From: an uncultured Oscillospiraceae bacterium
Lineage (GTDB): Bacteria > Bacillota > Clostridia > Oscillospirales > Oscillospiraceae
Reading direction: 5' to 3'
NCBI GenBank assembly: GCA_947624385.1
Contig: CANQJZ010000014.1
Location: 1-48,098 of the forward strand
Length of the DNA: 48,098 nt
Part shown: positions 3,031-21,945 of the stretch, one piece after another
Numbering within the stretch: the stretch's first letter is position 1
Layout: every line of letters starts with the position of its first letter
Program-made: the position numbers and the translations under genes
Notes under the pieces: model-generated
Databases searched by the model: none
What the model saw: the letters and a program-made list of their open reading frames with translations, nothing else
Told to the model about the DNA's origin: nothing

Positions 3031-3465
3031 ATGACGAACAAAGAATACAACGAGTATATCAAAAATATGGCCCCCAAATCGCCTCTGGCGGGGGACCTCA
3101 TAAAGGCGTTCGTGGTGGGCGGGCTGATATGCTGCCTGGGCGAGGGCCTGCGCATGGGCTACGAGGACTTCGCGGGGCTTGCGAAAGAGGACGCCGCCAC
3201 GGCGGTGAGCATGACGCTGATCTTCCTGTCCGCGCTGTTCACGGGCCTGAACGTGTACGACAAGCTGGCCCGGTTCGCCGGGGCGGGTACGCTGGTGCCT
3301 ATCACGGGCTTTGCAAACTCCGTGGTAAGTCCGGCGCTGGAGTTTAAAACCGAGGGGTTTATTCTGGGTACGGCGGCGAAGATGTTTACTATTGCCGGGC
3401 CGGTGATAACGTTCGGCATCACCGCCAGCGTGGTGTATGGGCTGATACTGTGTCTGCTGCGATAA
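3031..3465 (+). CDS. spoVAC: Stage V sporulation protein AC
   Basis: A 144-aa inner-membrane protein of the SpoVA complex, which moves dipicolinic acid into the forespore and releases it on germination. Family features are the N-terminal KSPLAGDLIKAFVVGG, a mid-protein VYDKLARFAGAGTLVPITGFANS and a C-terminal GTAAKMFTIAGPVITFGI, with four hydrophobic segments. The start at 3031 (MTNKEY) fits the family N-terminus and leaves a GGTGATGG sequence as ribosome site; in-frame GTG 3016 and ATG 3019 would be nearly leaderless given the promoter. It is solitary here, with no spoVAD or spoVAE following. Its last 114 nt recur twice downstream, so the present 3' end may have been delivered by an incoming element. 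Confidence 0.92.
   Translation: MTNKEYNEYIKNMAPKSPLAGDLIKAFVVGGLICCLGEGLRMGYEDFAGLAKEDAATAVSMTLIFLSALFTGLNVYDKLARFAGAGTLVPITGFANSVVSPALEFKTEGFILGTAAKMFTIAGPVITFGITASVVYGLILCLLR
3352..3465 (+). repeat. spoVAC 3'-end repeat, copy 1 (in the gene)
   Basis: These 114 nt encode the last 37 residues plus the stop of spoVAC. Copies of identical length lie at 12667-12780 and 18119-18232. The copies differ almost only at synonymous positions (one L/V change and TAA against TGA stop), which indicates origin from functional alleles, not neutral decay. Confidence 0.9.
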
Positions 3466-3466
3466 A

Positions 3467-3506
3467 ATAAGCTATGGCCGCCGGGAAACCGGCGGCCATA
3501 GCTTAT
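3467..3506. terminator. Bidirectional terminator after spoVAC
   Basis: A perfect 18-bp stem with a GAAA loop (ATAAGCTATGGCCGCCGG and its complement). Related hairpins follow the other two spoVAC 3' copies and precede the DUF4838 gene at 20.1 kb, so this is the ancestral spoVAC/DUF4838 convergence terminator. Confidence 0.85.
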
Positions 3507-7311: not shown

Positions 7312-7638
7312 ATGAAGAGAAAAACAAGGGGCCGGTTTATAGCCGCTGGGCTTTATGTTATTCTGCTGAGCGTGTTGCTTGCAGTTGCCGTTGCGATCGC
7401 ATATCAAAGGGTCATTTTGGGAAAGACGTCATCCTTTGATCGTTCCATCATCAGAGATGTGATGGGAAAAGCAGAACTATACGATCGGTTGCGTAAAGCC
7501 GTTCGTGCGCCGGATTGTGGGTTGTCGCCGCTGGCAAATGTTATGGGGTTAATGGGGATCGTAAGCTTTACCCTCATTGCGGTCAATGAGGTGCAATCCA
7601 AAACGCAGCTTCGGCATCTTAATGGAAGAAGTGGTTAA
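7312..7638 (+). CDS. Small membrane protein (108 aa)
   Basis: An unrecognised two-segment membrane protein. A basic N-terminus (MKRKTRGR) precedes a hydrophobic stretch at about residues 9-31, then a charged loop (SFDRSIIRDVMGKAELYDRLRK), and a second segment at about 70-91. The ATG at 7312 has GGGGGATG upstream at good spacing; the in-frame ATG at 7306 is too close to it. It overlaps the next gene by 17 nt, indicating coupled translation, and lies on the same strand as the large metallopeptidase-like gene. Confidence 0.6.
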   Translation: MKRKTRGRFIAAGLYVILLSVLLAVAVAIAYQRVILGKTSSFDRSIIRDVMGKAELYDRLRKAVRAPDCGLSPLANVMGLMGIVSFTLIAVNEVQSKTQLRHLNGRSG

Positions 7639-8953
7639 CTATTACTTTCCATTCCATTTGTATATTCAGGTATTCTTTTATATATGCTTTGCAGTTCTAG
7701 GCGGCTATGCTTGCGGAAAGGGAATTGGCATGACCGGCGCATTGTGTGTGCTGGGCCTTCTCAACTGCTTTATTTATTCCGTGGTAATGGCTTGGAAGCT
7801 TTTGCTGTCGCCCAAAGCAAAATACAAGCTGGTTATTAAATACATAGATGGAATTATGAAAAGGCAGCGGCAACTGGATAAGAAACTTGAAGAGATTATC
7901 CAAGAAACGAAGCAGGAAGAGAGTCAGGGCGACAACAAAGACGCGAAACTGGGGGAGAATCAGAATAATAAAAATTGGCGTCAGAGGCGCAAGGAAAAGA
8001 GAAACGACCGTGTGGAAAAGCAGTGGAAGCAGCAATGGAAAATAACGGAAAGAACGGTTTTGGATTTTGCGAGATATGTGGGTGTGCAGTGGCAAGAAAA
8101 GATGTCGCTTCAGGTTTATGATTTTAAAGGAATTGCTATAGAACAAGACCTTATCGAATGGATGAAAATATGTTTGACTTTGCCACAGAACAGCATAGCT
8201 CAGAAAGAGAAAGTGGGCATCGGAAACAGCTTTCAGAGCTTTTTCGTAACAGACAATTATCTCGTTGGTGTTGATAGTATAGCTGAATATGTCTTATATA
8301 CAAAATGCCTGCCCTTTACTAAAGACAAAGACAGAGATAAAGAAATTGTTGATTTCAATAAAAATATACTGTTGTGCTGTAAACTGTGGGAGAGCCTGTT
8401 TCATGGTATTCAAGACGAAAAGGCAAAAGTTAGGCTTACACATAAGCTTTTAAGGAATGTGTATTTCGCCACTGACGTAGAGGATCAGGCGCTGTTTACT
8501 TTGCTGCCACTGGGGCTTCTGGAGTATCAGGGGTTTACACGGTGGACGGTCGTGGAGGCGAAGGAATATCAGGAAAAGTGTTTTGCGTTTCTGGTAGATC
8601 TTCTGCAGGCGGACGCCGAGGCCGTTCCGGCGGAGAAAGGTGGATTTCTGGATGGCTGGGTTGAAATTGTGCTTCTTGCAACAGGCTGTTTGAAATGGCG
8701 GGCATTGTTGTCACTGTCATATGCAGAACGATCGAATAATATTAAACCTGCGACGCAAAGAATGATAAGGAGCCTGATGGTAAAACCGTTTCAGGAACGA
8801 ATTGCCACGGAGTTGGATAAATATATCGTATTTGCGTGGATTTCTTTGTTTTCAGAAAACAAAAGTTTATATGAGGGTCTTACAGTACGTGAACTGAGAG
8901 GGTGTATGAAAGAGATTCAAGGGCAGATTCGGCGAGAGATGTATAATAATTAA
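7622..8953 (+). CDS. Membrane-anchored protein with charged coiled linker (443 aa)
   Basis: I do not recognise this family. Two N-terminal membrane helices (about 10-30 and 37-58) are followed by a very charged helical linker (about 75-135, IDGIMKRQRQLDKKLEEII then Lys/Gln/Asn-rich) and about 300 residues of probably helical, soluble domain containing ATDVEDQALFTLLPLGLLEYQ. By the positive-inside pattern the large domain should be cytosolic. The start at MEEVVNYYF overlaps the previous gene by 17 nt; an in-frame ATG 15 codons earlier is possible. The metallopeptidase-like gene starts 26 nt downstream, so the two are almost certainly one operon. Confidence 0.65.
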   Translation: MEEVVNYYFPFHLYIQVFFYICFAVLGGYACGKGIGMTGALCVLGLLNCFIYSVVMAWKLLLSPKAKYKLVIKYIDGIMKRQRQLDKKLEEIIQETKQEESQGDNKDAKLGENQNNKNWRQRRKEKRNDRVEKQWKQQWKITERTVLDFARYVGVQWQEKMSLQVYDFKGIAIEQDLIEWMKICLTLPQNSIAQKEKVGIGNSFQSFFVTDNYLVGVDSIAEYVLYTKCLPFTKDKDRDKEIVDFNKNILLCCKLWESLFHGIQDEKAKVRLTHKLLRNVYFATDVEDQALFTLLPLGLLEYQGFTRWTVVEAKEYQEKCFAFLVDLLQADAEAVPAEKGGFLDGWVEIVLLATGCLKWRALLSLSYAERSNNIKPATQRMIRSLMVKPFQERIATELDKYIVFAWISLFSENKSLYEGLTVRELRGCMKEIQGQIRREMYNN

Positions 8954-8978
8954 TATAAAGAGCAGAGAGGTATGTCCG

Positions 8979-9095
8979 ATGTACGATCTTAGGGTTGTTC
9001 GGTTTATTAAAACAACAGAAAGACAGTCAATTCTTAGTAATGCCAGCGCAGATTATATTTGCCTTGGCCACTTCGATATGATGCATATTGAGTAA
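8979..9095 (+). pseudogene. 5' segment of the metallopeptidase-like gene, ended by in-frame TAA
   Basis: AGAGAGG, 8 nt upstream, precedes an ATG that opens 38 codons (MYDLRVVRFIKTTERQSILS to FDMMHIE) and ends in TAA at 9093-9095. The frame is the same as the long ORF that follows, and the intervening codons LGTL also read through. The peptide aligns by eye with the N-terminus of the minus-strand homologue (FDMMHIE against YDELFVD), so it is the true N-terminus and the TAA replaces a sense codon, perhaps Tyr. Confidence 0.65.
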
Positions 9096-9104
9096 CTGGG
9101 CACG

Positions 9105-11564
9105 TTGACAAACGATCCGTTGGCAGCAATACAGCAGGATAGAGATGTTTTAGGAGAGGGTAGTTTTTCTTACAGCGTAAATCATGTCTATTCTTTGTAT
9201 ATTTTAAAAATTGTCAAAGAGGACGAAGAAAAAAACCTGGAAGACTTTTGGGATGATAGGGAAAGTGTTTACACAATCGTTACCAGGATACACTGTGATT
9301 ATGCTGCTGGCGTCGATCATAAGAGGCCCTTTTCTCGAATTATTGCGGATCATTGTATAGATGAAAAGTCAGCGCATATTACAGCGCAAGGTTGCGTAAA
9401 GGGCATTATAAAACTAGCTGGAGATATTAACAGCACTGGAAATGCTAAGGCTGATGTGAAATGCGTGCTCTATGATTCTCTTGAATTGGGTGATTCAGTT
9501 GTAATCATGAAGAGCGGATCTTTATCGGCTATTCTGGAGGTCGTGCGGCATATTTCATCAAACCCCTGCGTCAGAGATACCTATACATACTGTGGCATAT
9601 CCCGCAAGCTGCTGCAAGATAGAGACTCCGATCTAGACAAGCTGGCCATGAAGGATGCTGAGTTGCCGCATGTGTCAACACGGTTTTCTGTTCGCAACAA
9701 CTCAGCAGCAAGTATTTTCTTTGAAAAACTCTTAGAAGATATGGATCCTGTGCCTCATTTTTATGTGACAGGTACAGCGGATCAAATAATTCAATGGGGA
9801 AACTGTTCTGAAAATAGGTTCTTGAAAATCATGCGCAGGATAACGCAGCAGGGCGACAGCATATATCCTTGCTTCAACGATGTCATGACGAGGGTAGGAA
9901 TACGACAGGTGAATACAGTCCTAGAAGAGGATGACCCACCGGAAACAGAAAAAGCAAGCAAACTGGTCAGAGATAACCGGGTGAAGTTCTTTCGGGAAAC
10001 AATTGACTGGCTGAAGGAAGATCTTATTAGCAGGAATGGTGTAGATTCTAAAGTCGAGATCAATTGGAAATATTCCCTATTGAAACTTCTTGGAACATTG
10101 GAAACAATGTACGCGAACTACGTGATGGATGACTTGGCCAATTTGATTATTCCAAGTGTTGATGCGTTTCTAGTACGGCTAAATTGCATCAAAGAAAATA
10201 ACAGCGGATCAATACCAGCGAAGTATAATGAGGATATTCTTGAGTTCTTACGGCACTGGACAAGCTTGACGAACGATGTATCACAACTAGAGAGCCAATT
10301 GACTCAACACCCGGAGTTGATTCCTGTCAGATATTACATTCCTGCGATGTTGCTGCAGTTTGAGTTGCGATTTGTAGAATACTGCTGCGATGCGCTTAGT
10401 GACGGAGAATCACGAAGTTTTCATCCAATGTTGCTTCCGACAGATACAGAGGAATTATATACTTATTCTCCTTTAGACCCGAAGCAGGAGAAGTATCAGG
10501 GCAAGTGCCCGTTGTTGGTGTTTATACCGCTTCAGGATCTTTACCGGCCGTGGCAGAATGCACACCGGATAGCACATGAAATTGCCCATTACTGTGGCGA
10601 TTCCGAGAGAATGCGTAAAGAGAGGCATGAGGTCCTCACAGAGTGCATGGCATATTTTGTGGCCAATCGGTGGTATCGTGATTTTAGCAGACTTTTGTCA
10701 GAAGATGAGGCTGAAAAATTATATGTAAAGACTAGCGAATATGCAAGTGACCTTGCTAATTCGGTGGACGCACTGGTACGCCAGGCAGATCCAGATGTGG
10801 AAGAATGGTATTTGGCTCTGAGTAAAAGAAAACTGCTTTCCGCTGTAAAGGAAATTATAAATAATGAGCAGTATTTTGATCAATATCTGTTTAGTTATGA
10901 TCCGACCATTTTTTACAAAGGACGTAATAACTTTGAAAGTTTAAAACAAAGTGCCCAATCTGCACAAATCAAGCTCTACGAGATCCGAAGTCATATGGAC
11001 GGACTCGCACATTTATGTGCTGAATGTTATGCAGATATTGCAATGGTGTTGTTGTTAGAGTGCAACTTTCAGGACTACTATATGTGCGTATATCATGAGG
11101 AATATCTGAGATTGCGTAAAATCTACAGAGATGGCGTAGACAAGCCTCCGTTTGCAGGTGGCGTTCTCTCTCATATTGATCGAATGGGATTGGTCATATA
11201 CGCTATTCGCGGGATCGGGGATCCAACACTGCGTCAACAGTGGGAGAATGGATCGGTCACAGCGACGGAGTCCGTCAATATTCAGTGGATCAAAACTGCG
11301 GCGCAGTTTGTAGATTTCCTTGAAAAAGATAGTTCAAATCATTTTGATTCTATCCATGAATCTATAGAGGCGCTTCCGCTGTTTTATGAGTTTGTAAAGC
11401 TGGGAGGATTATTAAGAAGCTGTGCGCGTGGTATAGAAGATGCATTCAAGAAGTTCGCGAATCGTAAGGAAGCGAAAAAGGCGGTCATGGAGAGCATTCA
11501 ACACGTAAAAGACGGAGAGTTTGATTGGGAGAGGCTGCGGCGATTTTTGACCGGTGTCAATTGA
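9105..11564 (+). CDS. Putative HEXXH metallopeptidase with N-terminal sensor-like region
   Basis: 819 residues from a TTG restart, or 861 counted from the upstream ATG through the TAA. The N-terminal ~280 residues hold repeated units ending in hydrophobic-x-G-x-x-D-hydrophobic patterns (LGHFDMMHI, SLELGDSVVIM, VTGTADQIIQW), reminiscent of ferredoxin-like or ACT/Lrp ligand domains. A helical middle follows. The C-terminal half carries HEIAHYCG (His at residue 491 of the 819) and AECYAD (Glu at 640). A HEXXH plus a distant E-x-x-AD helix is the zinc-ligand layout of gluzincin peptidases. There is no signal peptide, so it should be cytosolic. It ends at an IS3-type end (TGTCAATTGA), whose TGA is its stop. 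The TTG start has no ribosome site, so the gene may be inactive. Confidence 0.7.
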   Translation: MTNDPLAAIQQDRDVLGEGSFSYSVNHVYSLYILKIVKEDEEKNLEDFWDDRESVYTIVTRIHCDYAAGVDHKRPFSRIIADHCIDEKSAHITAQGCVKGIIKLAGDINSTGNAKADVKCVLYDSLELGDSVVIMKSGSLSAILEVVRHISSNPCVRDTYTYCGISRKLLQDRDSDLDKLAMKDAELPHVSTRFSVRNNSAASIFFEKLLEDMDPVPHFYVTGTADQIIQWGNCSENRFLKIMRRITQQGDSIYPCFNDVMTRVGIRQVNTVLEEDDPPETEKASKLVRDNRVKFFRETIDWLKEDLISRNGVDSKVEINWKYSLLKLLGTLETMYANYVMDDLANLIIPSVDAFLVRLNCIKENNSGSIPAKYNEDILEFLRHWTSLTNDVSQLESQLTQHPELIPVRYYIPAMLLQFELRFVEYCCDALSDGESRSFHPMLLPTDTEELYTYSPLDPKQEKYQGKCPLLVFIPLQDLYRPWQNAHRIAHEIAHYCGDSERMRKERHEVLTECMAYFVANRWYRDFSRLLSEDEAEKLYVKTSEYASDLANSVDALVRQADPDVEEWYLALSKRKLLSAVKEIINNEQYFDQYLFSYDPTIFYKGRNNFESLKQSAQSAQIKLYEIRSHMDGLAHLCAECYADIAMVLLLECNFQDYYMCVYHEEYLRLRKIYRDGVDKPPFAGGVLSHIDRMGLVIYAIRGIGDPTLRQQWENGSVTATESVNIQWIKTAAQFVDFLEKDSSNHFDSIHESIEALPLFYEFVKLGGLLRSCARGIEDAFKKFANRKEAKKAVMESIQHVKDGEFDWERLRRFLTGVN

Positions 11565-12660
11565 ATGATTGCGTTTTGGTCGTAGCCGCCCACCCGGAAG
11601 GCAAACGCGCCAAAGCAGCCGGGAACAAAAACCGTACCCAGACTAATATGCTCCCTCTATGGAGGACGGTGAAAAAAGACACTGCATCCATGGAGGGAGC
11701 ATTATTATGGGCAAAGAGATCAGCAGCGAGGAGAAATATAATGTAAGACAAATTCTTCGCGGAGAAATGAGTCAGCGGTATGCGGCGGAGATTCTGGGGA
11801 TGCATTGGTCCAGTGTACAGGCGTGGGTGCGCCTTTATGAATCGGAGGGCGCGGCAGCGTTGGTGAGGAACGGCCAGAACCGTGGCTATGGCACCGAGGC
11901 ACAATGGGCCGCTGTGCAGGAGTATCTGGCCGGGAAGAGGGGGCCTGAGCGCAGTCTGAAACATATCAAATTCGGGCAAATACAACGCTCATGCACTGGA
12001 TAAAGGAGTATTATGCTCATGGAAGATCCACCTCGATGGTTTGGAACACACTATGACATCCACGCAAATGACAAGCGAGTGCTTCGTATATGCCGGGCAA
12101 CGGATATCCGGACCACAGTCAAGCGTGTCAGTCACAGATGCACCAGGTGTTCCAGAAACCCGCAGTACATAGACGAAAATCTACTGGACTGCCAATTCCA
12201 TGCGGACAAGCCCTAAAAGAGTTCAAGTGGTATGAGGGCATGGAGGTACACAAGCTGTATCTCAGCGCCACACTGGACCTGTATGATCGGCGTATCGTCT
12301 CCTATGTGATAAGCAAACGAAACGACAATCCGCTGATATTCAACACCTTTGACGAGGAGGTAGTAACTAAATCCCAATGCGTATCCCCTGTTCCGCAGCG
12401 ACTGTGGTTTCCAATACACGCACAGGGCGTTCCACCAGCGGCTCGAAAAGGCAGGCATGACCAGAGTATGTCCCGTGAAGCCCACTGCATAGACAATGGT
12501 CTCATGGAGGGTTTTTGGGGGCATTTTGAAAGGGGAGTGTTAGCTGCGTTTCTTCGAAAAGGGGAAATGGATGCGGTTTCAGCCACATAGTGGCAAGATG
12601 TTCGGAAAAGTGCGCCCTGCGCCCTCTGTTCGACACGAAAAGTTTGGTCCTTCATTGACA
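11552..12660 (+). mobile_element. Degenerate IS3-family (IS150-like) insertion sequence
   Basis: About 1.1 kb. The outer ends are TGTCAATTGAATGA on the left and, read inward, TGTCAATGAAGGACC on the right: imperfect terminal inverted repeats beginning with TG as in IS3 elements. An inverted repeat (TGCTCCCTC...GAGGGAGCA, 11650-11704) precedes the transposase. No matching target duplication is seen at the two ends, so the flanks have been rearranged. The right end adjoins a displaced spoVAC 3' end. Confidence 0.7.
11707..12590 (+). pseudogene. IS3-family transposase, multiply broken
   Basis: The first frame (to 12003) encodes a helix-turn-helix OrfA: MSQRYAAEILGMHWSSVQAW, then LVRNGQNRGYG. OrfB pieces follow in shifted frames: a part near 12150-12215 ending FHADKP, then EFKWYEGMEVHKLYLSATLD and DLYDRRIVSYVI at about 12225-12310, and CIDNGLMEGFWG near 12490. 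The LTDVTEFK segment with the first catalytic Asp is deleted between FHADKP and EFKW, and the second Asp region (HSDRG) is frameshifted. Only the final Glu helix is intact. The element cannot move by itself. Confidence 0.8.
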
Positions 12661-12666
12661 GCAGCG

Positions 12667-12780
12667 GAGGGGTTCATTCTGGGTACGGCGGCGAAGATGT
12701 TCACCATCGCCGGGCCGGTGATAACGTTTGGTATCACCGCCAGCGTGGTTTATGGGCTGATATTGTGTGTGCTGCGATGA
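12667..12780 (+). repeat. spoVAC 3'-end repeat, copy 2
   Basis: 114 nt encoding the same last 37 residues of SpoVAC (one L-to-V change) with its own TGA. It follows the IS right end after six bases. At least seven of its differences from copy 1 are synonymous. Confidence 0.9.
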
Positions 12781-12786
12781 AATAAG

Positions 12787-12903
12787 CTATGGCCGCCGGG
12801 AAACCGGCGGCCTGTTTTTATAGACCGGTGTAATTGCGCGTCACATCCAGAACCCGGTACACGTCCAGCCAGGGCTGGGTCCGCCGCTCGGTGGCGCGGA
12901 GGT
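12787..12903. repeat. Displaced terminator plus DUF4838-gene 3' end
   Basis: A hairpin (GGCCGCCGG, GAAA, CCGGCGGCC) followed by TGTTTTT, then about 85 nt closely matching the last 28 codons of the DUF4838 gene at 20128-20213. The match stops abruptly at GCGCGGAGGT. This is a scar of an older spoVAC/DUF4838 junction. From 12904 to 13030 I see nothing recognisable. Confidence 0.85.
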
Positions 12904-13472: not shown

Positions 13473-15278
13473 TCATTGGGAAGATTCCAGATGTGCATCT
13501 AATGCCTTGTAGTAACGGCTTACAAAATCAAACAAGTCTTTGTCTAACTCAAGTACCGAACCATTCTTGGACATTGTGGAGTATATGTGGCGAATATCCT
13601 TAATTGCTGCTTGTAAATTATCCTGCTGAAGCTTATCAGTCATGCGGGTTGAACACTCACATAGATACTCTACCTGTGCGTGGAAGAGAGCCGGGTTAAT
13701 ATTGTGCTCCTGTAGATATACGGCGGTGTCCTGGGGAGGACGGAGCGCCAACAATTTTTCCTCCGATTCTTTAGGTGTTTTCCATATTTTTTGCTTGGCC
13801 AGTGCTGTAGAAACTGCCAGAGTACGGGTTTTAAGGTCTTCCGCAGTTATTCCTCTGAACATTCGTTGGTACTGCTCTTGGCTCATATTCAGGAGCCTGA
13901 TAACCTGAAGATCCGCATAGGTTTCGCTGAACAAATAACAGAAGTGCTCATGCCGTTTTAGTCGGTTATGCAAACGCGAGGTGCTTTCAGCTTGGTTCCA
14001 AACATCTGCCTCAATATAATCTTCAAACATTTGGTCAAAATCCTGCCGCAGCTTAGCCTCGTATACCTTCCGGCGCGTTTCCTCCACGCTTTTCCATTTT
14101 GTCCGGGGTTTCTTTTTGTCCGGGGACTCTCCACTCCGTTTTGCATACCATGTCCCCCACTTGCTTTCCAAAAAGTAGCTCTCATAGAGGAACCTAAATA
14201 CCCTCTCACATATTTCTGGATCGCTGATAATAAAATTCGGCAGATCCTTCAACTCGTTTTCTACGTCTCTTAAGTAAAGGTCCTTTACATCACTTAGTTC
14301 TACATTAGTACGAAGCAGGAGACTATATAAGGAATCAACGCATTCTTTGGTTTTTCCCCAATTGATCCCAACATCCGGCATTGTTTCAACAAAACCAGGA
14401 ACTGGCATATTCCTTGTGAGATACTGTGGAAAAAGCTCGGCCATATCTTCTAAAAATGTCTGTATCCCTACTCTAAGGAGCAGCCGTTTGCGCATCGGAC
14501 GACTCCTGCATGTGTTGCCAACAAAATGGGATATTTCGTGTCCAAATACCTCAGTCGTATGACGCAGAGCATACAGAGACTGTTCGCCTATACTGATGGA
14601 CAGGAACTGATTGAGTCCCGTCACTTCTGGGATGGCAATTGATGTAACGTCCAGTTCTTTGGCGAACTTAGGTGAGATAGTCAGGTCATAATTCTCATTA
14701 GAATCCTTCAAAACATCAATAAGACGGTGAGCCAGGGCAACGTAGTAGGCCATGATCTTCGGTGGCATTTCAAATGAGGCAGGATGGAATGGGGGAACTT
14801 GGACAAACTGACGGTTGCTGTGGTTTGTGCTATCGATCAAGGCAGAGATATTGTTAAAAAAAGTCGTAAAACAATTTCGGATGGCGTCCATGTGCGTCAT
14901 TCCCAAGGCGTCTGACGTGAAGAGTAAAGTTGCATATTCGAGCAGGTCTATAAACTGCGGCACTAAGCAAGCCCCAAGATCAACTGTCAATTTCGTGTTT
15001 AGCAACGACTGAGACAGCATGGCAGCGTCTTTGAGCCAGCGAAGCCATATCTCATTTGGCTCGGTTCCAATTGCCTTGCATTTTCCTTTGTATAGTGTTT
15101 CAAAGGATTGCAGCGCCGTCTGCATCCCGTTGAAAACAGGTGGATTTTTTTCTGCCGGAACTGTATTTGAGCGGATAGAAGACATCTGCGGGGGAATCAG
15201 AATTGATAGCTTATAGGTCGAGTACCAGTCATCGCCTTTTTTTGCATCTTCATCAATTCGTTTACTTTTATGATCCAC
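13473..15278 (-). CDS. Putative HEXXH metallopeptidase, downstream half of a split gene
   Basis: 601 codons from a GTG, with no ribosome site. It carries HEISHFVG (first His at residue 247 of this frame) and FSETYADLQVIRLLN about 205 residues later, which match by eye HEIAHYCG and AECYADIAMVLLL of the plus-strand homologue. The conserved HEXXH and E-x-YAD support a gluzincin-like zinc site. A charged insertion (about SGESPDKKKPRTKWKSVEE) lies between them. The frame overlaps the upstream gene by 82 nt and connects to it exactly at a slippery A-AAA-AAG. It is most likely translated as the C-terminal ~587 residues of a -1 frameshift fusion, or is separated from its N-terminus by loss of one A. 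Cytosolic; substrate unknown. Confidence 0.7.
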   Translation of the reverse strand: MDHKSKRIDEDAKKGDDWYSTYKLSILIPPQMSSIRSNTVPAEKNPPVFNGMQTALQSFETLYKGKCKAIGTEPNEIWLRWLKDAAMLSQSLLNTKLTVDLGACLVPQFIDLLEYATLLFTSDALGMTHMDAIRNCFTTFFNNISALIDSTNHSNRQFVQVPPFHPASFEMPPKIMAYYVALAHRLIDVLKDSNENYDLTISPKFAKELDVTSIAIPEVTGLNQFLSISIGEQSLYALRHTTEVFGHEISHFVGNTCRSRPMRKRLLLRVGIQTFLEDMAELFPQYLTRNMPVPGFVETMPDVGINWGKTKECVDSLYSLLLRTNVELSDVKDLYLRDVENELKDLPNFIISDPEICERVFRFLYESYFLESKWGTWYAKRSGESPDKKKPRTKWKSVEETRRKVYEAKLRQDFDQMFEDYIEADVWNQAESTSRLHNRLKRHEHFCYLFSETYADLQVIRLLNMSQEQYQRMFRGITAEDLKTRTLAVSTALAKQKIWKTPKESEEKLLALRPPQDTAVYLQEHNINPALFHAQVEYLCECSTRMTDKLQQDNLQAAIKDIRHIYSTMSKNGSVLELDKDLFDFVSRYYKALDAHLESSQ

Positions 15279-16063
15279 GCGGTAGTCGCATTTCTTTTGA
15301 AAAAGCCGATGTCGTTTCTTCCAAGCATCCAGCCGTATTCCAGTTCCGGGGCATTCTTTCCGTCTATATCCTGTAACTCGGTGTAAAAGCTAGCTGCTTT
15401 TTTAAAATCTTTCACACCGATTCGGATATAAGCGCTAAAAGCTTCGCTATCTTCCAGAACTTTCTTTCCAAAAGAAAAGCTGTAGAGCGTGATGCAGTCT
15501 TCAACTTTTAACTTTTCAGAAAACTTAAGATCAAAAATCATTCTTGTGTATTCCGCAAAGCTCGTGCTGCGGACAAAGAGGATGATGTCACAATGGTCAA
15601 AGGTCAGATAGGCCAAATGCTGAGCCCCCGCGAATATTGTCTCTATGCATTTTAAGACGCCATCGATATCATCGCCGTTTTTTATATTAATTAGAGATAC
15701 AAAGAACAGAGGATAGCTTTGGTCAGCCCAAAAAGCCTCAATTCGATCTTTGCTGTATCGGTTACCCTCTTGTGAGGAAATATCTGTAAACGCAACGATC
15801 GTTTGATAAAATGACCCAAAAACGCGATGGTTTTTATCGCGTTTCAGCATATAGTCATAGGCCGACTGCAACGGCGACCTACCAACTTCCGATTCGACCC
15901 CGTCTACAAACAATTCATCATAGTAAGAGAAATTGTAGTAGTGGTTTTCATTGCTTGGCTCCGAAAAACTCATTGAGGACACAGCACCATGAGAGTGAAA
16001 TGTCAGTACCCGGGTATCTACATTTGGCTTACCTGCTGTGGCGACGACTCCAGTCTTATTCAT
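15197..16063 (-). CDS. Sensor-like N-terminal half of the split metallopeptidase gene
   Basis: 288 residues starting at an ATG with an ideal AAGGAG five nt upstream. Repeated alpha/beta units are visible (YYDELFVDG, LTFDHCDIILFVRS, GRNDIGFFKR), similar to ferredoxin-like ligand-binding folds. They align in order with the N-terminal 280 residues of the plus-strand homologue; for example RIGVKDFKKAASFYTEL corresponds to RFSVRNNSAASIFFEKL. In frame it ends 12 codons after the slippery heptamer with TGTRPISYQF. A -1 shift at the heptamer would continue into the peptidase half as QKKGDDWYSTYKL, matching TQQGDSIYPCF of the homologue. It is downstream of a 57-aa ORF and a cyclase-like gene on the same strand. 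Confidence 0.7.
   Translation of the reverse strand: MNKTGVVATAGKPNVDTRVLTFHSHGAVSSMSFSEPSNENHYYNFSYYDELFVDGVESEVGRSPLQSAYDYMLKRDKNHRVFGSFYQTIVAFTDISSQEGNRYSKDRIEAFWADQSYPLFFVSLINIKNGDDIDGVLKCIETIFAGAQHLAYLTFDHCDIILFVRSTSFAEYTRMIFDLKFSEKLKVEDCITLYSFSFGKKVLEDSEAFSAYIRIGVKDFKKAASFYTELQDIDGKNAPELEYGWMLGRNDIGFFKRNATTAWIIKVNELMKMQKKAMTGTRPISYQF
15236..15242 (-). other. Slippery heptamer A-AAA-AAG joining the two halves
   Basis: On the minus strand codons CAA AAA AAG of the upstream gene form A-AAA-AAG in the correct phase, the same heptamer used in E. coli dnaX. A -1 slip leads straight into the downstream frame (AAA AAA GGC GAT). I see no clear stimulatory hairpin. A one-base loss from an A8 run would look the same. 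Confidence 0.6.
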
Positions 16064-16119
16064 ACGTACTCCTTCCAAATGACAACAAAGAGGATAGACA
16101 ATGCCCATCCTCTTGTTGA

Positions 16120-16293
16120 CTATCTTCTTTTTGTCTGGCGGCTGTCTCGGTACACGCCAGAGACCTTGACGCTGGGATTACCCTCTTCAGCAAGCCGTGA
16201 GATTTGTGCATTCCTGCCTGCCGGTTCGGATCGGTTCACATTTCGCCGGACCTGTAGAGAGGTTCCCTTCGTCAGAAACAAATGCCGTTCCAT
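16120..16293 (-). CDS. Small basic protein (57 aa)
   Basis: Not a recognised family. The 57-residue frame starts MERHLFLTKGTSLQVRR and ends YRDSRQTKRR; it is strongly basic with no hydrophobic segment. Support for it being real: AAGGGAG four nt before the ATG, a consensus promoter 43 nt upstream, and a stop about 57 nt before the ribosome site of the next gene. It would be the first gene of the split-metallopeptidase transcript. Possible roles are regulator, RNA binder or antitoxin-like partner; none is demonstrated. Confidence 0.5.
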   Translation of the reverse strand: MERHLFLTKGTSLQVRRNVNRSEPAGRNAQISRLAEEGNPSVKVSGVYRDSRQTKRR

Positions 16294-16335
16294 ACGTCTC
16301 CCTTTCCATCTAGTAATTCTACTAAGATGCTATTG

Positions 16336-16364
16336 ATTATACCATAGCACACAATAAAATGCAA
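16336..16364 (-). promoter_or_regulatory. Sigma-A promoter of the 57-aa/metallopeptidase operon
   Basis: On the minus strand TTGCAT (16364-16359), a 17-nt spacer and TATAAT (16341-16336), preceded by TG (extended -10). Confidence 0.75.
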
Positions 16365-16380
16365 GAACAATATTCTTGCA
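16360..16380. promoter_or_regulatory. Palindrome over the -35 (operator or weak terminator)
   Basis: TGCAAGAA and TTCTTGCA form a perfect 8-bp inverted repeat with a 5-nt centre, overlapping the -35 element. On the minus strand TTTTATT follows, so it could instead end the cyclase-like transcript. Confidence 0.5.
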
Positions 16381-16430
16381 TTAGAAACCGCCTGTTCATG
16401 GCGTTTTCAGAGCTTAGAAGTCCAAGCCTT

Positions 16431-17747
16431 TCACGGCGAAACACCCTTTATCCCAGAGTTCTCTTCCTGCTTTATCTCTTGGGCTATTTCAGACCCACGA
16501 ATAATCTTGACCCCGCCGTCTTCCGAGAAAACGAGAGCGGCCATCCTGCCATCTGTCTGTTTCTTGTACAGATTTGCGATAAATGTTTTGATGCTGTTGT
16601 GGCGGGCACCCCGATCTAAGTGCCCATCCACGATTGCCAGTCCATCTACAATGGCCGCAGTATACTGCAACTCGCCAGTATTGACATCAACGACGAGTGC
16701 ACCATCGATTCGACCGAGATTTGCAAGAAACTTGCCCTGCTCCTTCGTGTGCTGCATCTGCAGCAAATGCACATTCTTCGTTGGCAACGCACGTTTTCTA
16801 TTTACAAGATTCTCCATCCAATCATGCGCAGGTCCACCAGACGCAAGATCTAGAAAGATGACCGACGTGCCATGGTGTTGCTGAGAGATGGCGTGGATGG
16901 CAGTTTTCATCTTTTCTACTATCGCAGCCTGGTTTGGGTCTCCTTTAAACTCCTCTTGGAGCAAAGAAAACGCGTTTTCAATCTCATCAACGATGATTCT
17001 CGGGTTCCCATTGATCATCTCAAAAAGAGGTTCTCCCTCTTTGGACAACACCCAATTGTAAGGTCCACGAATTTCAATGCAGTACGGGAACTCATTTTTT
17101 CTGTCTAAGGGAATAAATCCATAGCAAAGGTATTCTCTGCTTTCTTCGTCATGGTATAGGAGTAGACAGTTGTTGTGAGATCCCGCGAGAACCTTCCTCA
17201 CCTGCTTTATATTATGCGCGTTCAGTGCTAATCGTTTATTCTCAGTAAAACGCACAAGCGGCAAAGGCTCCAGTTTAGCACAGTCTCGTTCGTCCAAGTC
17301 AGGCAGGAACGCTATCTCTCCACGGGCGGCCTCCCCCTCATAGGGCGCATTTGAGAGCATGTCAATTACGTCAAAATCTAGGCCTAAAACAGTCTTATAG
17401 CGCGTCTTGAGCCAATCACCAATCTCAGCATAGAGGCAGTTTGCCACGTCGTCATTGGAAGAGGTGCCTTTAGTATCTGAACGATAAAAGAGCTTGTTGG
17501 GATCTTGAAAAGGGATCAGCCTCATTCCATGAAAGGCCCTCACAACTCTGTCAACAGCTATTTGAAGCAATGCCTGGCAGTCGCTTGTTCCGATATAAAT
17601 CGTTTCCAAATCTTTATACTTTCCTTGTAGCTTCTGAAAATAGGTGCCAACATCTTCTTTTGTGTTTCCGGCCTTCAATGTGCCGCTTTCTGCACCTAAG
17701 AGATTTGCAAGAGGATCCAAAATCTTCTGAAAATACGCGTTTTCCAT
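16431..17747 (-). CDS. Diadenylate-cyclase-like protein (putative sensor domain + DisA_N/DAC domain)
   Basis: 438 aa. The C-terminal ~270 residues follow the DisA_N/DAC fold pattern: KVLAGSHNNCLLLYHD, then HHGTSVIFLD (about 291-300), GRIDGALVVD (DGA at 348-350) and DRGARHNSIKTF (RH at 382-383). DGA and RHR are the nucleotide-binding and catalytic motifs of c-di-AMP synthases; here the second reads RHNS. The N-terminal ~150 residues, with YEGEAARGEIAFLP, look like one of the sensor domains known to precede DAC domains in conflict systems (DACN-type). The ATG has GAGGT seven nt upstream. An in-frame extension to 18107 runs into IS sequence and is not real. Soluble. Product and activity are inferred. 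Confidence 0.75.
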   Translation of the reverse strand: MENAYFQKILDPLANLLGAESGTLKAGNTKEDVGTYFQKLQGKYKDLETIYIGTSDCQALLQIAVDRVVRAFHGMRLIPFQDPNKLFYRSDTKGTSSNDDVANCLYAEIGDWLKTRYKTVLGLDFDVIDMLSNAPYEGEAARGEIAFLPDLDERDCAKLEPLPLVRFTENKRLALNAHNIKQVRKVLAGSHNNCLLLYHDEESREYLCYGFIPLDRKNEFPYCIEIRGPYNWVLSKEGEPLFEMINGNPRIIVDEIENAFSLLQEEFKGDPNQAAIVEKMKTAIHAISQQHHGTSVIFLDLASGGPAHDWMENLVNRKRALPTKNVHLLQMQHTKEQGKFLANLGRIDGALVVDVNTGELQYTAAIVDGLAIVDGHLDRGARHNSIKTFIANLYKKQTDGRMAALVFSEDGGVKIIRGSEIAQEIKQEENSGIKGVSP

Positions 17748-17793
17748 GTTGTCGACCTCATTATGCCCGAATGTTATATCAGTACCTATGTAA

Positions 17794-17821
17794 ATTTTAG
17801 CATAATTTGTAGAAAAATCAA
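17794..17821 (-). promoter_or_regulatory. Promoter of the cyclase-like gene
   Basis: On the minus strand TTGATT (17821-17816), a 16-nt spacer and TAAAAT (17799-17794) with an upstream TG, about 45 nt before the start codon. Confidence 0.55.
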
Positions 17822-18071
17822 GAGGAAAGAGGATGGAGGAGCCCTGTACATCGGGTGAATTGACTGTTGCACTACCTGGGGCATGTGTGGTGGCTTGGTC
17901 GTATTCAATATAGGAACTCTTTATTTGGATTTGGCGCTCGGTTTGGTTTAAAATGGTGCAAATAAAGAGGGGCAGAGCGATAATTGAATGCATCAGCGGT
18001 TTTGAACTGTGCCAATCATTTAGAGCCGCTAGGATCGTATTGCGACAAATAGTCAGATTTATCGCGTCCTC
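17822..18071. other. Intergenic stretch without a recognisable gene
   Basis: About 250 nt between the cyclase promoter and the IS end fragment. The open frame crossing it on the minus strand has no family resemblance and no ribosome site, and it begins inside IS sequence. I see no gene, RNA or repeat here. Confidence 0.5.
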
Positions 18072-18112
18072 CGACCTCCGTTCGACACGAAAAGTTTGGT
18101 CCTTCATTGACA
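18072..18112 (+). mobile_element. Right-end fragment of the same IS3-type element
   Basis: From GTTCGACACGAAAAG to CATTGACA the sequence is identical to the right end at 12628-12660. The same GCAGCG follows, then a spoVAC 3' copy. The element body is missing. Confidence 0.8.
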
Positions 18113-18118
18113 GCAGCG

Positions 18119-18232
18119 GAGGGGTTTATTCTGGGTACGGCGGCGAAGATGTTCACCATTGCCGGGCCGGTGATAACGTTCGGCATCACCGCCAGCGTGG
18201 TGTATGGGCTGATATTGTGTGTGCTGAGGTGA
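18119..18232 (+). repeat. spoVAC 3'-end repeat, copy 3
   Basis: 114 nt encoding the last 37 residues of SpoVAC, ending V-L-R with AGG TGA. It is closer to copy 1 in some positions and to copy 2 in others. Confidence 0.9.
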
Positions 18233-18235
18233 AAA

Positions 18236-18268
18236 CAGGCCGCCGGGAAACCGGCGGCCTGTTATTAT
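18236..18268. terminator. Terminator following spoVAC copy 3
   Basis: CAGGCCGCCGG, GAAA loop, CCGGCGGCCTG, then TTATTAT. Same hairpin core as after copies 1 and 2 and before the DUF4838 gene. Confidence 0.8.
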
Positions 18269-18287
18269 ATGTTTTTGCAGCTCGCTG

Positions 18288-20055: not shown

Positions 20056-20098
20056 GCCGGATCGACCGGGTTCGATATTGTGTGCTGAGGTAAAGAGG

Positions 20099-20127
20099 CT
20101 GGCCGCCGGGAAACCGGCGGCCAGGTT
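20099..20127. terminator. Bidirectional terminator between SWIM and DUF4838 genes
   Basis: CTGGCCGCCGG, GAAA, CCGGCGGCCAG, then GTTTTAT. It is the fourth occurrence of the spoVAC-associated hairpin and is preceded by a truncated relic GATATTGTGTGCTGAGGT of the spoVAC end. Confidence 0.8.
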
Positions 20128-21945
20128 TTATAGTCCGGTGTAGCTGCGGGTCACGTCCAGGGCACGGTATACGTCCAGCCAGGGCTGGGTCCGCCGCTCG
20201 GTGGCGCGGAGGTAGCGGGCCATATCCTCCCAGGCGGCGTGGGCCTCGCTGTCCCGGCCCTGAGCCAGCAGCTGCAGGGCCTTCGCCAGCCGCTGGCCGT
20301 ATTCGGCGTGGTGGCGCAGGGCCGACCAGAAGGGGCCGGTGTGCTTGGCCGCGTCCGACGCCAGACGCCCGCAGAGCCGGAGGGCCTGGCCGGCCTTGTC
20401 CGCGGCGGCCGGGTCCATGCGGGGGCCCTTGCCGTTTACATAATCACATAGCTGTAAATCGGACAGCTTTGCCAGATACCCCAGCGCCAGGGGCGCGTCC
20501 GGGCCGTAGGCGGCTTGGAAGTACTCGTTGACCAGCGCGTCAAAGTCCGCGCCGCCGTCGAACAGCGCCCGGCCCATCACGTAGTTGGGCAGGAAATTGG
20601 GCGAGCCGGCCCGGAGCTCCTGGCAGCTGATGTAGCCGTTCAGGCCCATCTCATGCAGACGGGCGATGTCCTGGCACAGGACGCGGGCGATGTGGATATA
20701 GCCGAGGTCGCCGTAGTGAGCCCGGCCCAGGGGGTAGTCGTATACAAAGCTGTCCCCCGGGAAGACATCCTGCCAGGCCCGGAGAAAGGCCAGGTTTTCC
20801 TCCAGCCCCGCCGGGAGGGTGATGCGGTTGCGGACATAGGGCGGTACTGCGCGCCGGGGCGCCGCCAGGTCGTAGGAGCTGGCAAAGGTCCGGCTGATGG
20901 GGGCGAACATGAGCACGAACCGGTCAGGGTCCGCGAGCCGCTCCCGGACGGGCGGCCAGAGAAGCTCCTGATAGAGCAGGAACACGATTTTGGTGTTCAG
21001 ACCCTCCGCTGTGAGCCGCCGGCCGATGTCGTTCAAAAGCGCCACGTACAGGTCCGTGGGGGCGCTCTCCCGACAGGCGGGGCACTCGCACACGTTGTTG
21101 TACTCGTCCGCCAGCCACACGTGCAGGTAGTCCACACCGGGGTTTGTCCTGGCGTAGTCCGTCACCAGCACGGCAAAGCGGGCGCGGGCCTGCGGGTTGG
21201 AAAGGCAGAGGTTCGTGTTGGTAGGCACGCCCTTATAAAAATCACGGACGCCGTGTACCAGCGCGGCAAAGGGGCGCTTGTCCTCCGCAAGGGGATGGGG
21301 CGAGCTGTCCCAGGTGAGGCTGTCGCAGCCAAGCACCTGGCCCGTCCAGCCGTGGCCCACCTTGTGCAGCATCAGACCCCGGCGGCGCATTTGCGCCTCC
21401 GCCTGGTCCATGACCGCCTCCGCGTCCGCGGCGTCAAAGGGCTCCGGGGCCGCGTGGGGGTTATTCAGGTGGCGGTACCAGCGGTCCAGAAAGACGTATG
21501 GCGTGCGGAACTGGAGGAAGAAGGCGTTGAAGCCCGCCTTGGGCAGCCAGTCGATGAAGTCCAGGATGTTCTCCCGGCTGTCGGCCCCCTCGATGCACAC
21601 GCCCCGGTGGAAGTAAGCCGCCGTCTTTTCATAGCGCAGACGGATGGCCTCGGGGGCGACAGGGGGGATGACCTCGTGTGCCCGGCCCGGGGCCAAAAAC
21701 CGGCAGCCCAGCATGCGCAGGGCGTCGTACACCCCCAGCAGGGTCGCACGGTCCGAGGACCCGACGATGGAACCGCCGACGGGGGACAGGTCCACGGCGA
21801 AGGCGTCGCTGCCGGCTTTGGGGACCGTGACAAGCCGGACGGACATGGCGGCGTCCGCCGGGAGCATACGGGCCAGATAAGAGCGCAGCTCGTCGGCGGC
21901 AAAGGCCAGGGTCTCGCCGGGGGCGTGGGTGATGGTGATGTTCAT
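20128..21945 (-). CDS. DUF4838-type glycoside-hydrolase-like protein
   Basis: 605 aa. The N-terminal ~100 residues form an alpha/beta domain like those preceding GH67/GH20 catalytic barrels (FAADELRSYLARML...IVGSSDRATLLGVYDALR). A DUF4838-like barrel follows, with SRENILDFIDWLPKAGFNAFF near 120, WLADEYNNVCECPACRE near 285 and a C-terminal helical part. Cysteines around NNVCECPAC are typical of the family. There is no signal peptide, so it should act on sugars in the cytosol. GAGGA lies 9 nt before the ATG. Its last 28 codons are duplicated at 12.82 kb. Natural substrate unknown. Confidence 0.8.
   Translation of the reverse strand: MNITITHAPGETLAFAADELRSYLARMLPADAAMSVRLVTVPKAGSDAFAVDLSPVGGSIVGSSDRATLLGVYDALRMLGCRFLAPGRAHEVIPPVAPEAIRLRYEKTAAYFHRGVCIEGADSRENILDFIDWLPKAGFNAFFLQFRTPYVFLDRWYRHLNNPHAAPEPFDAADAEAVMDQAEAQMRRRGLMLHKVGHGWTGQVLGCDSLTWDSSPHPLAEDKRPFAALVHGVRDFYKGVPTNTNLCLSNPQARARFAVLVTDYARTNPGVDYLHVWLADEYNNVCECPACRESAPTDLYVALLNDIGRRLTAEGLNTKIVFLLYQELLWPPVRERLADPDRFVLMFAPISRTFASSYDLAAPRRAVPPYVRNRITLPAGLEENLAFLRAWQDVFPGDSFVYDYPLGRAHYGDLGYIHIARVLCQDIARLHEMGLNGYISCQELRAGSPNFLPNYVMGRALFDGGADFDALVNEYFQAAYGPDAPLALGYLAKLSDLQLCDYVNGKGPRMDPAAADKAGQALRLCGRLASDAAKHTGPFWSALRHHAEYGQRLAKALQLLAQGRDSEAHAAWEDMARYLRATERRTQPWLDVYRALDVTRSYTGL

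Follow-up and report, generated by a model that had tools for sequence, protein, structure and literature searches.

Programmed -1 ribosomal frameshifting of the dnaX type takes place at an in-phase A-AAA-AAG heptamer, and in the case of dnaX the shift yields a shorter product. As far as the published account of such sites bears on this heptamer, A_AAA_AAG is far more shift-prone in Escherichia coli than other heptamers, which was ascribed to the sole lysine tRNA pairing weakly with AAG; in an organism such as Thermus thermophilus, which has two lysine tRNAs, one of them would be expected to pair tightly with this codon (PMC5009743). Regarding frame-transition genes at large, the GeneTack survey counts 104,260 singletons among 206,991 predicted cases, and of its clusters it assigns 4010 to pseudogenes and 146 to recoding; as the main sources of the singletons it names errors, recent indels or false positives, and it also admits orphan recoding (PMC3711429). 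Here, we analysed a split metallopeptidase-like gene of an uncultured Oscillospiraceae bacterium, which lies in two overlapping open reading frames (ORF1 and ORF2) on contig CANQJZ010000014.1, whose 48,098 nucleotides (nt) form the window of this study. Like dnaX, the split gene has an in-phase A-AAA-AAG. Like the singleton or indel-disrupted genes of the survey, its break was found once, its relatives are unbroken and its surroundings are decaying; it differs from them in having one lesion, intact motifs and a heptamer at or near the break. Very probably, the break is an ordinary one, in a decaying island of low GC content on which a second paralogue is disrupted as well.

In this assembly, the gene is indeed split. 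ORF1, on the minus strand, starts at the ATG at 16063 and stops at the TGA at 15199-15197; the ORF listing starts it at an upstream in-frame ATG at 16108, which gives 303 amino acids (aa). ORF2 lies in the -1 frame relative to ORF1, and both frames overlap by about 190 nt. Within this overlap, seven A's at 15243-15237 form the longest homopolymer, and an in-phase heptamer of the X-XXY-YYZ type, A-AAA-AAG, stands at 15242-15236 in the phase of ORF1. An earlier note on this DNA had given CAA AAA AAG at 15244-15236 of the upstream frame, with correct coordinates and heptamer, and had proposed a -1 slip entering the downstream frame at GGC GAT. This was reproduced by joining the frames, as a -1 step at the A tract fuses ...MQKK with GDDWYST... 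and gives a product of 863 aa. Concerning translation starts, Shine-Dalgarno (SD) pairing amounts to -8.9 kcal/mol at the ORF1 start, and no SD was found for the two candidate starts of ORF2, namely the GTG at 15278 (-1.1 kcal/mol) and an in-frame ATG at 15185-15183 (-1.3 kcal/mol), 11 nt past the ORF1 TGA. The earlier note was right about the missing ribosome site of the GTG and had overlooked this ATG.

That ORF1 and ORF2 derive from one ancestral gene, as had been assumed before, is supported because four relatives are single-frame and the joined product aligns with them. These four other members have 888 aa (G638), 852 aa (G616), 883 aa (G914, a Clostridia metagenome-assembled genome from goat caecum) and 1127 aa (G131), and all four are single frames, the last one being distant and counted from a TTG. 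In the MAFFT alignment, the joined product could be aligned along the relatives, with ORF1 as the N-terminal part and ORF2 as the rest, and the four single frames run without a break across the stretch of the ORF1/ORF2 junction. In its N-terminal half, the protein has diverged too far from these relatives for pairwise BLASTP. The line-up of QKKGDD with TQQGDS of the plus-strand homologue, on which the earlier note had drawn, did not hold in this alignment, since MAFFT sets QQGD some columns off, in a poorly conserved stretch.

The features that would accompany a dnaX-type site were then compared. Twelve related or neighbouring ORFs, 23.6 kb in all, contain in-phase A-AAA-AAR five times, the site in the split gene counted, and at this density 0.04 would be expected in the overlap of about 190 nt. 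The motif is found in unsplit frames too, e.g. twice in the G914 gene (codons 140 and 189), and runs of at least seven A's occur 11 times among the 12 ORFs surveyed. The presence of the heptamer is weak evidence because losing one base from an A tract produces a canonical heptamer in two of the three phases. In several respects the split gene differs from dnaX-type frameshifting. No SD-like stimulator was found about 10 nt upstream, the best anti-SD pairing being -3.1 kcal/mol at about 25-40 nt upstream. Downstream, four stretches folded less stably than mononucleotide shuffles (z of +1.0 to +1.6, with stem-loops scored and pseudoknots excluded). The earlier note, too, had found by eye no clear stimulatory hairpin or upstream SD. 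Conservation in the distant relatives is also missing: none of the four other single-frame members, all distant, shows the split with its heptamer, and none of five other members, paralogue B of the same window included, has a run of at least six A's within 30 codons of the aligned junction. At about 20 codons from this junction, paralogue B has G-GGA-AAC and the G914 gene has T-TTC-CCT. Moreover, the host carries a tRNA-Lys(CUU) with anticodon CTT (G000:C15:46069-46141), so that it lacks the tRNA set, with a UUU lysine tRNA only, that makes A-AAA-AAG slippery; none of 30 loci, out of 33 host tRNA matches, has TTT, the genome being 93% complete. Finally, a shift in the split gene would give the longer product.

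Important insight can also be gained from the position at which joined products score best. With a profile of the family, products joined at 15265-15205 reached 124.6-130.2 bits (128.0 at the A tract, best value 130.2 at 15205), and those joined at 15388-15316 reached 111.8-116.9 bits; this profile was built from an alignment that had contained the joined protein, which implies a mild bias. The pairwise score with paralogue B favours the tract region as well (22 at 15247, 20 at the tract), and those with the G638 and G616 proteins change little with the switch position. Homopolymers are places where indels tend to arise. Most plausibly, a small indel within about 15345-15205 breaks the frame, and the A tract at 15243-15237 is the favoured spot because it is the longest homopolymer in the overlap. 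A frame change exactly at the A tract is plausible.

The surroundings were examined at the level of composition and of other disrupted genes. Of the 1-kb bins between 7 and 18 kb, ten of 11 have a GC content of 41.7-48.8% and one of 52.7%, and thirty bins of the right flank have 53-68%. This low-GC island was probably imported. Besides the split gene, it holds paralogue B, which belongs to the same peptidase family and is broken too, and a degenerate IS3-type relic, of which no further near-full copy was found in the host genome. In the case of paralogue B, the earlier note had counted a plus-strand homologue of 861 aa from the ATG at 8979; in this frame, codon 39 is a TAA at 9093-9095, and the count from the TTG at 9105 is 819 aa. 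The family profile matches 8982-11555 with this single TAA inside, and because the family homology continues through it, a lesion appears likelier than a mistaken choice of start. The split gene and paralogue B share 22% identity over 131 aa (E 8e-6, in a single comparison), and BLASTP of the N-terminal half of the split gene against paralogue B gave nothing significant.

Altogether, the following course of events is proposed. An ancestral single gene would have encoded an N-terminal region and a C-terminal HExxH...ExxxD peptidase-like region. A small indel would then have broken the frame, with the A tract as the favoured spot. Ribosomes starting at the ATG at 16063 would now make a 288-aa protein without the peptidase, and accidental slippage would add at most small amounts of the longer protein. 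As to its cause, we lean towards a recent mutation, and consider an assembly or sequencing error less likely than a mutation and rather doubtful. This reading is favoured because paralogue B and the IS3 relic in the island are broken too, and with the known lesions confined to the island, decay is favoured over a generally poor assembly. The lesion, its cause, its place, the import of the island and the roles of the two regions are what we infer from these observations.

Several observations weigh against such a reading or limit it. Neither half is interrupted, over 288 and 601 codons, and HEISH and ETYAD are retained in ORF2, which leaves room for one lesion only and no advanced decay. Ten long ORFs of the right flank show no obvious frame break, so that a generally poor assembly is not indicated; eight of these ten matched NCBIfam at E 1e-10, most of them under the curated cut-offs, and two had no match. 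The members are distant, the identity of ORF2 being 24% to the G914 protein, 21-22% to that of G638 and 17% to paralogue B, and therefore they do not tell the age of the split in this lineage. The searches turned up no relative close to the split gene, so that the missing conservation holds for distant members. Regarding where the frame switches, the likelihood from codon usage is highest near 15340 and exceeds that of the A tract by about 3 log units; in pairwise alignment, the G914 protein gives its best score at 15343-15340 (146, compared to 128 at the tract). These lines of evidence disagree, with 15340 on one side and 15265-15205 on the other; with a switch near 15340, the heptamer would be a coincidence.

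The same observations bear on other explanations of the split. The first reading given in the earlier note was programmed -1 frameshifting at A-AAA-AAG, which would set the ratio between a short product lacking the peptidase and a long one that has it. It is attractive in that a canonical heptamer stands in phase in the overlap, where ORF density predicts 0.04 of them, that A_AAA_AAG is especially shift-prone in E. coli, as parts of PMC5009743 report, and that the joined product resembles the single-frame relatives. The heptamer itself is the only positive support. On testing, both a nearby upstream SD and a stable downstream fold were absent, the tRNA-Lys(CUU) of the host should pair tightly with AAG according to the same parts of PMC5009743, all four single-frame relatives are unsplit and have no A tract of at least six at this place, loss in an A tract would by itself give such a heptamer in two of three phases, and both codon usage and the G914 score put the switch elsewhere. 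We therefore regard programmed frameshifting as unsupported and quite improbable, and favour over it the error or mutation that the earlier note had offered as its alternative, for which a loss exactly at the A tract is plausible. According to the earlier note, homologues with a plain single frame and no conserved heptamer would reduce the case to an error or a fresh mutation; such homologues were found, all of them distant. A more specific version would have a metallopeptidase coupled to the neighbouring diadenylate cyclase (DAC), belonging to an uncharacterised defence family and dosed by -1 frameshifting, so that mostly the 288-aa part and a set fraction of peptidase are made. To this we give very little credence, and we know of no anti-phage system with frameshift dosing of this kind.

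A two-subunit protein could arise if ORF2 were translated apart by termination-reinitiation at the ATG at 15185; the spacing of 11 nt between stop and start suits coupling and the catalytic motifs of ORF2 are kept 3' of this ATG, but neither it nor the GTG at 15278 has an SD and the four single-frame relatives are continuous across this stretch, which makes such a protein very improbable. Phase variation would instead require a contingency locus, in which the length of the A tract switches the peptidase on and off in the population. In favour of this, the tract does lie at the junction or close to it, and the island to which the gene belongs may have a role in defence. Seven A's are short for a contingency tract, however, and neither the number of such runs in the 12 ORFs, which makes the tract nothing special, nor the lack of runs of at least six A's near the junction in the other members agrees with it, and we consider this highly improbable. 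Transcriptional slippage on the A tract, restoring the frame in part of the mRNA, has the A homopolymer in its favour; seven A's are few for efficient slippage of RNA polymerase and no other observation supports it, so that its probability is close to negligible. An ordinary frame break on the decaying island thus remains the preferred explanation.

Table 1. Positions of the split gene and of the elements around it, numbered along the window.
Feature	Coordinates	Strand	Remarks
ORF1, N-terminal part of metallopeptidase gene	15197..16063	minus	288 aa, good SD GGAAGGAG
ORF2, C-terminal metallopeptidase-like part	13473..15278	minus	601 aa from GTG; HEISH and ETYAD motifs
CAA AAA AAG, A7 tract	15236..15244	minus	in-phase A-AAA-AAG; likely, unproven place of frame change
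Paralogue B	8979..11564	plus	TAA at 9093-9095; open from TTG 9105 (819 aa); HEIAH and ECYAD
Putative membrane protein 5' of paralogue B	7577..8953	plus	hydrophobic segments near residues 23-77
Degenerate IS3-type relic between paralogue B and split gene	11659..12590	plus	transposase homology in two frames with stops
Direct repeat, left copy	12612..12822	plus	about 210 bp, 91% identical to 18064-18269
Direct repeat, right copy	18064..18269	plus	
DACNH and diadenylate-cyclase-like protein, 5' of ORF1	16431..18107	minus	Pfam PF21750, NCBIfam NF053872

The relatives described above came from searches covering 1983 genomes in total, overlapping draws included. With ORF2 as query, the host genome alone was matched among 200 genomes of its family, among 35 of its genus and, after one match was discarded, among 398 of its phylum. 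The discarded match (G412) was spurious, with an E value of 0.003, two internal TGA and a frame at this locus that looks by eye like a P-type ATPase. ORF2 gave zero matches in plasmids and phages, and neither ORF2 nor alignment A3 gave any in viral contigs. In genome contigs, ORF2 alone found none and alignment A3 found only the G914 contig again; these contig scans, seeded by short peptide patterns, overlook distant relatives. Searches with profiles matched the host, G131 and G914 among 295 genomes of the order, G914 alone among 63 of its own family, and the host alone among 341 genomes of the class. The search with paralogue B in 250 genomes of the family matched the host, G616 and G638; another match (G072, E 9e-5) was discarded as a chance match within a frame that by eye is uroporphyrinogen decarboxylase-like. 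Paralogue B found none in plasmids and none in viral contigs, and ORF1 found none in plasmids.

Regarding the identity of the protein, HExxH followed by ExxxD at a distance of 142-231 residues is present in all six members, including both copies of the window, and HExxHxxG and ExxxD are invariant in an alignment of five sequences. HExxH...ExxxD is the pattern of gluzincin zinc peptidases. Judged from these motifs, the C-terminal region would be zinc-metallopeptidase-like and the split gene a probable zinc protease gene, and the N-terminal region perhaps has a role in sensing. While the two motifs are a likeness to gluzincin-type metallopeptidases, the present members differ from these in having no Pfam family at the cut-off and no PDB sequence above noise. 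Neither half of the split gene matched Pfam, NCBIfam or PADLOC at the limits used, and a sequence search of the PDB with the peptidase profile gave only noise. With regard to a zincin fold, the AlphaFold2 model of ORF2, calculated with three sequences in the alignment, is poor and has a mean pLDDT of 37.4. The peptidases of the four relatives had zero PADLOC matches at E 0.01, and paralogue B had two matches (E 0.004 and 0.02).

The gene 5' of ORF1 encodes a DAC-like protein. It matches the DACNH domain (PF21750) with 30.1 bits (cut-off 27) and NF053872, the DAC family of the DS-2 anti-phage system, with E 3.5e-16 and 58.7 bits, below the curated cut-off of 630. As reported for DS-2 in the part of the DefensePredictor paper (PMC13092281) that concerns its DAC, changing two predicted catalytic residues abolished the defence. 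The G914 genome also has a DAC 5' of its one-frame peptidase, with 67.1 bits to NF053872 and 23.3 bits to DACNH, the latter under the cut-off; both DACs share 24% identity over 168 aa. The pair of DAC and peptidase hence occurs twice, in the window (13473-18107, minus strand) and in G914 (L020:5826-10151, minus strand), with gaps of 368 and 580 nt, in genomes from different families of one order. While both DACs distantly match the DS-2 family, their scores are far under its cut-off and the neighbour of the window DAC is a peptidase. PF21750 was found in two of the 398 phylum genomes, the host and G202, and two distant DACs were found in plasmids, in Priestia and Dyadobacter. The DAC search of viral contigs found none, and the PDB sequence search with the DAC found nothing. 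In the Priestia megaterium plasmid (L006:7458-15628), the distant DAC relative lies close to a cytosine methyltransferase, and an NgoFVII-family restriction endonuclease and a very-short-patch repair endonuclease are also near it. In the window, an inverted repeat noted by eye at 16063-16150, AACAAGAGGAT ... ATCCTCTTTGTT, lies directly 5' of the ORF1 SD and could be a terminator or a regulatory hairpin between the DAC and the peptidase.

The module of DAC and split peptidase is flanked by the direct repeat of about 210 bp, and related pieces lie at 3352-3497 and 20074-20213. By eye, the repeated segment (12612-12903 and its counterparts) comprises the end of a small hydrophobic frame and a terminator-like hairpin. 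About the first 15 codons of the DAC fall inside the repeated segment; this start of the DAC, like 12759-12903, has the look of a recombination joint. Adjoining the island, a SWIM zinc-finger protein at 18418-20055 matches the PADLOC candidate PDC-S62 (E 3.4e-19).

Other members of the family have other neighbours. In three loci (window 7577-11564, plus strand; L012:6377-10644; L013:7601-11731), a putative membrane protein, 458-529 aa long, precedes a member of the B type, and the putative membrane proteins in G638 and G616 occupy the same place as the one in the window. The membrane proteins of the window and G638 share 28% identity over 79 aa (E 4e-5) and the other pairs have no detectable similarity, so that homology of these three putative neighbours would be only weakly supported. 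The G131 member (L021:2647-8202, minus strand) adjoins a SIR2-like protein (PF13289, E 9.3e-14, with weak PADLOC matches to SIR2 and ThsA) and a response-regulator/DUF4062-like protein matching the PADLOC candidate PDC-S60. The partners thus comprise a DS-2-like DAC at two loci, a putative membrane protein at three and a SIR2-like protein at one. This arrangement suggests a peptidase coupled to interchangeable partners, possibly in a modular stress or anti-phage system, and the DAC with the HExxH/ExxxD metallopeptidase may possibly be a new defence module. Among the titles listed, the literature showed none recognisable as a pair of DAC and metallopeptidase, and nothing related on DACNH.

In conclusion, as a frameshift finding this locus is ordinary, and it shows that a slippery heptamer found in phase where a gene is broken gives weak evidence for recoding. 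What remains useful is the gene family: these rarely found and unclassified peptidases stand beside varied partners and recall modular conflict systems, and with its intact relatives the family can be tested in laboratory strains.

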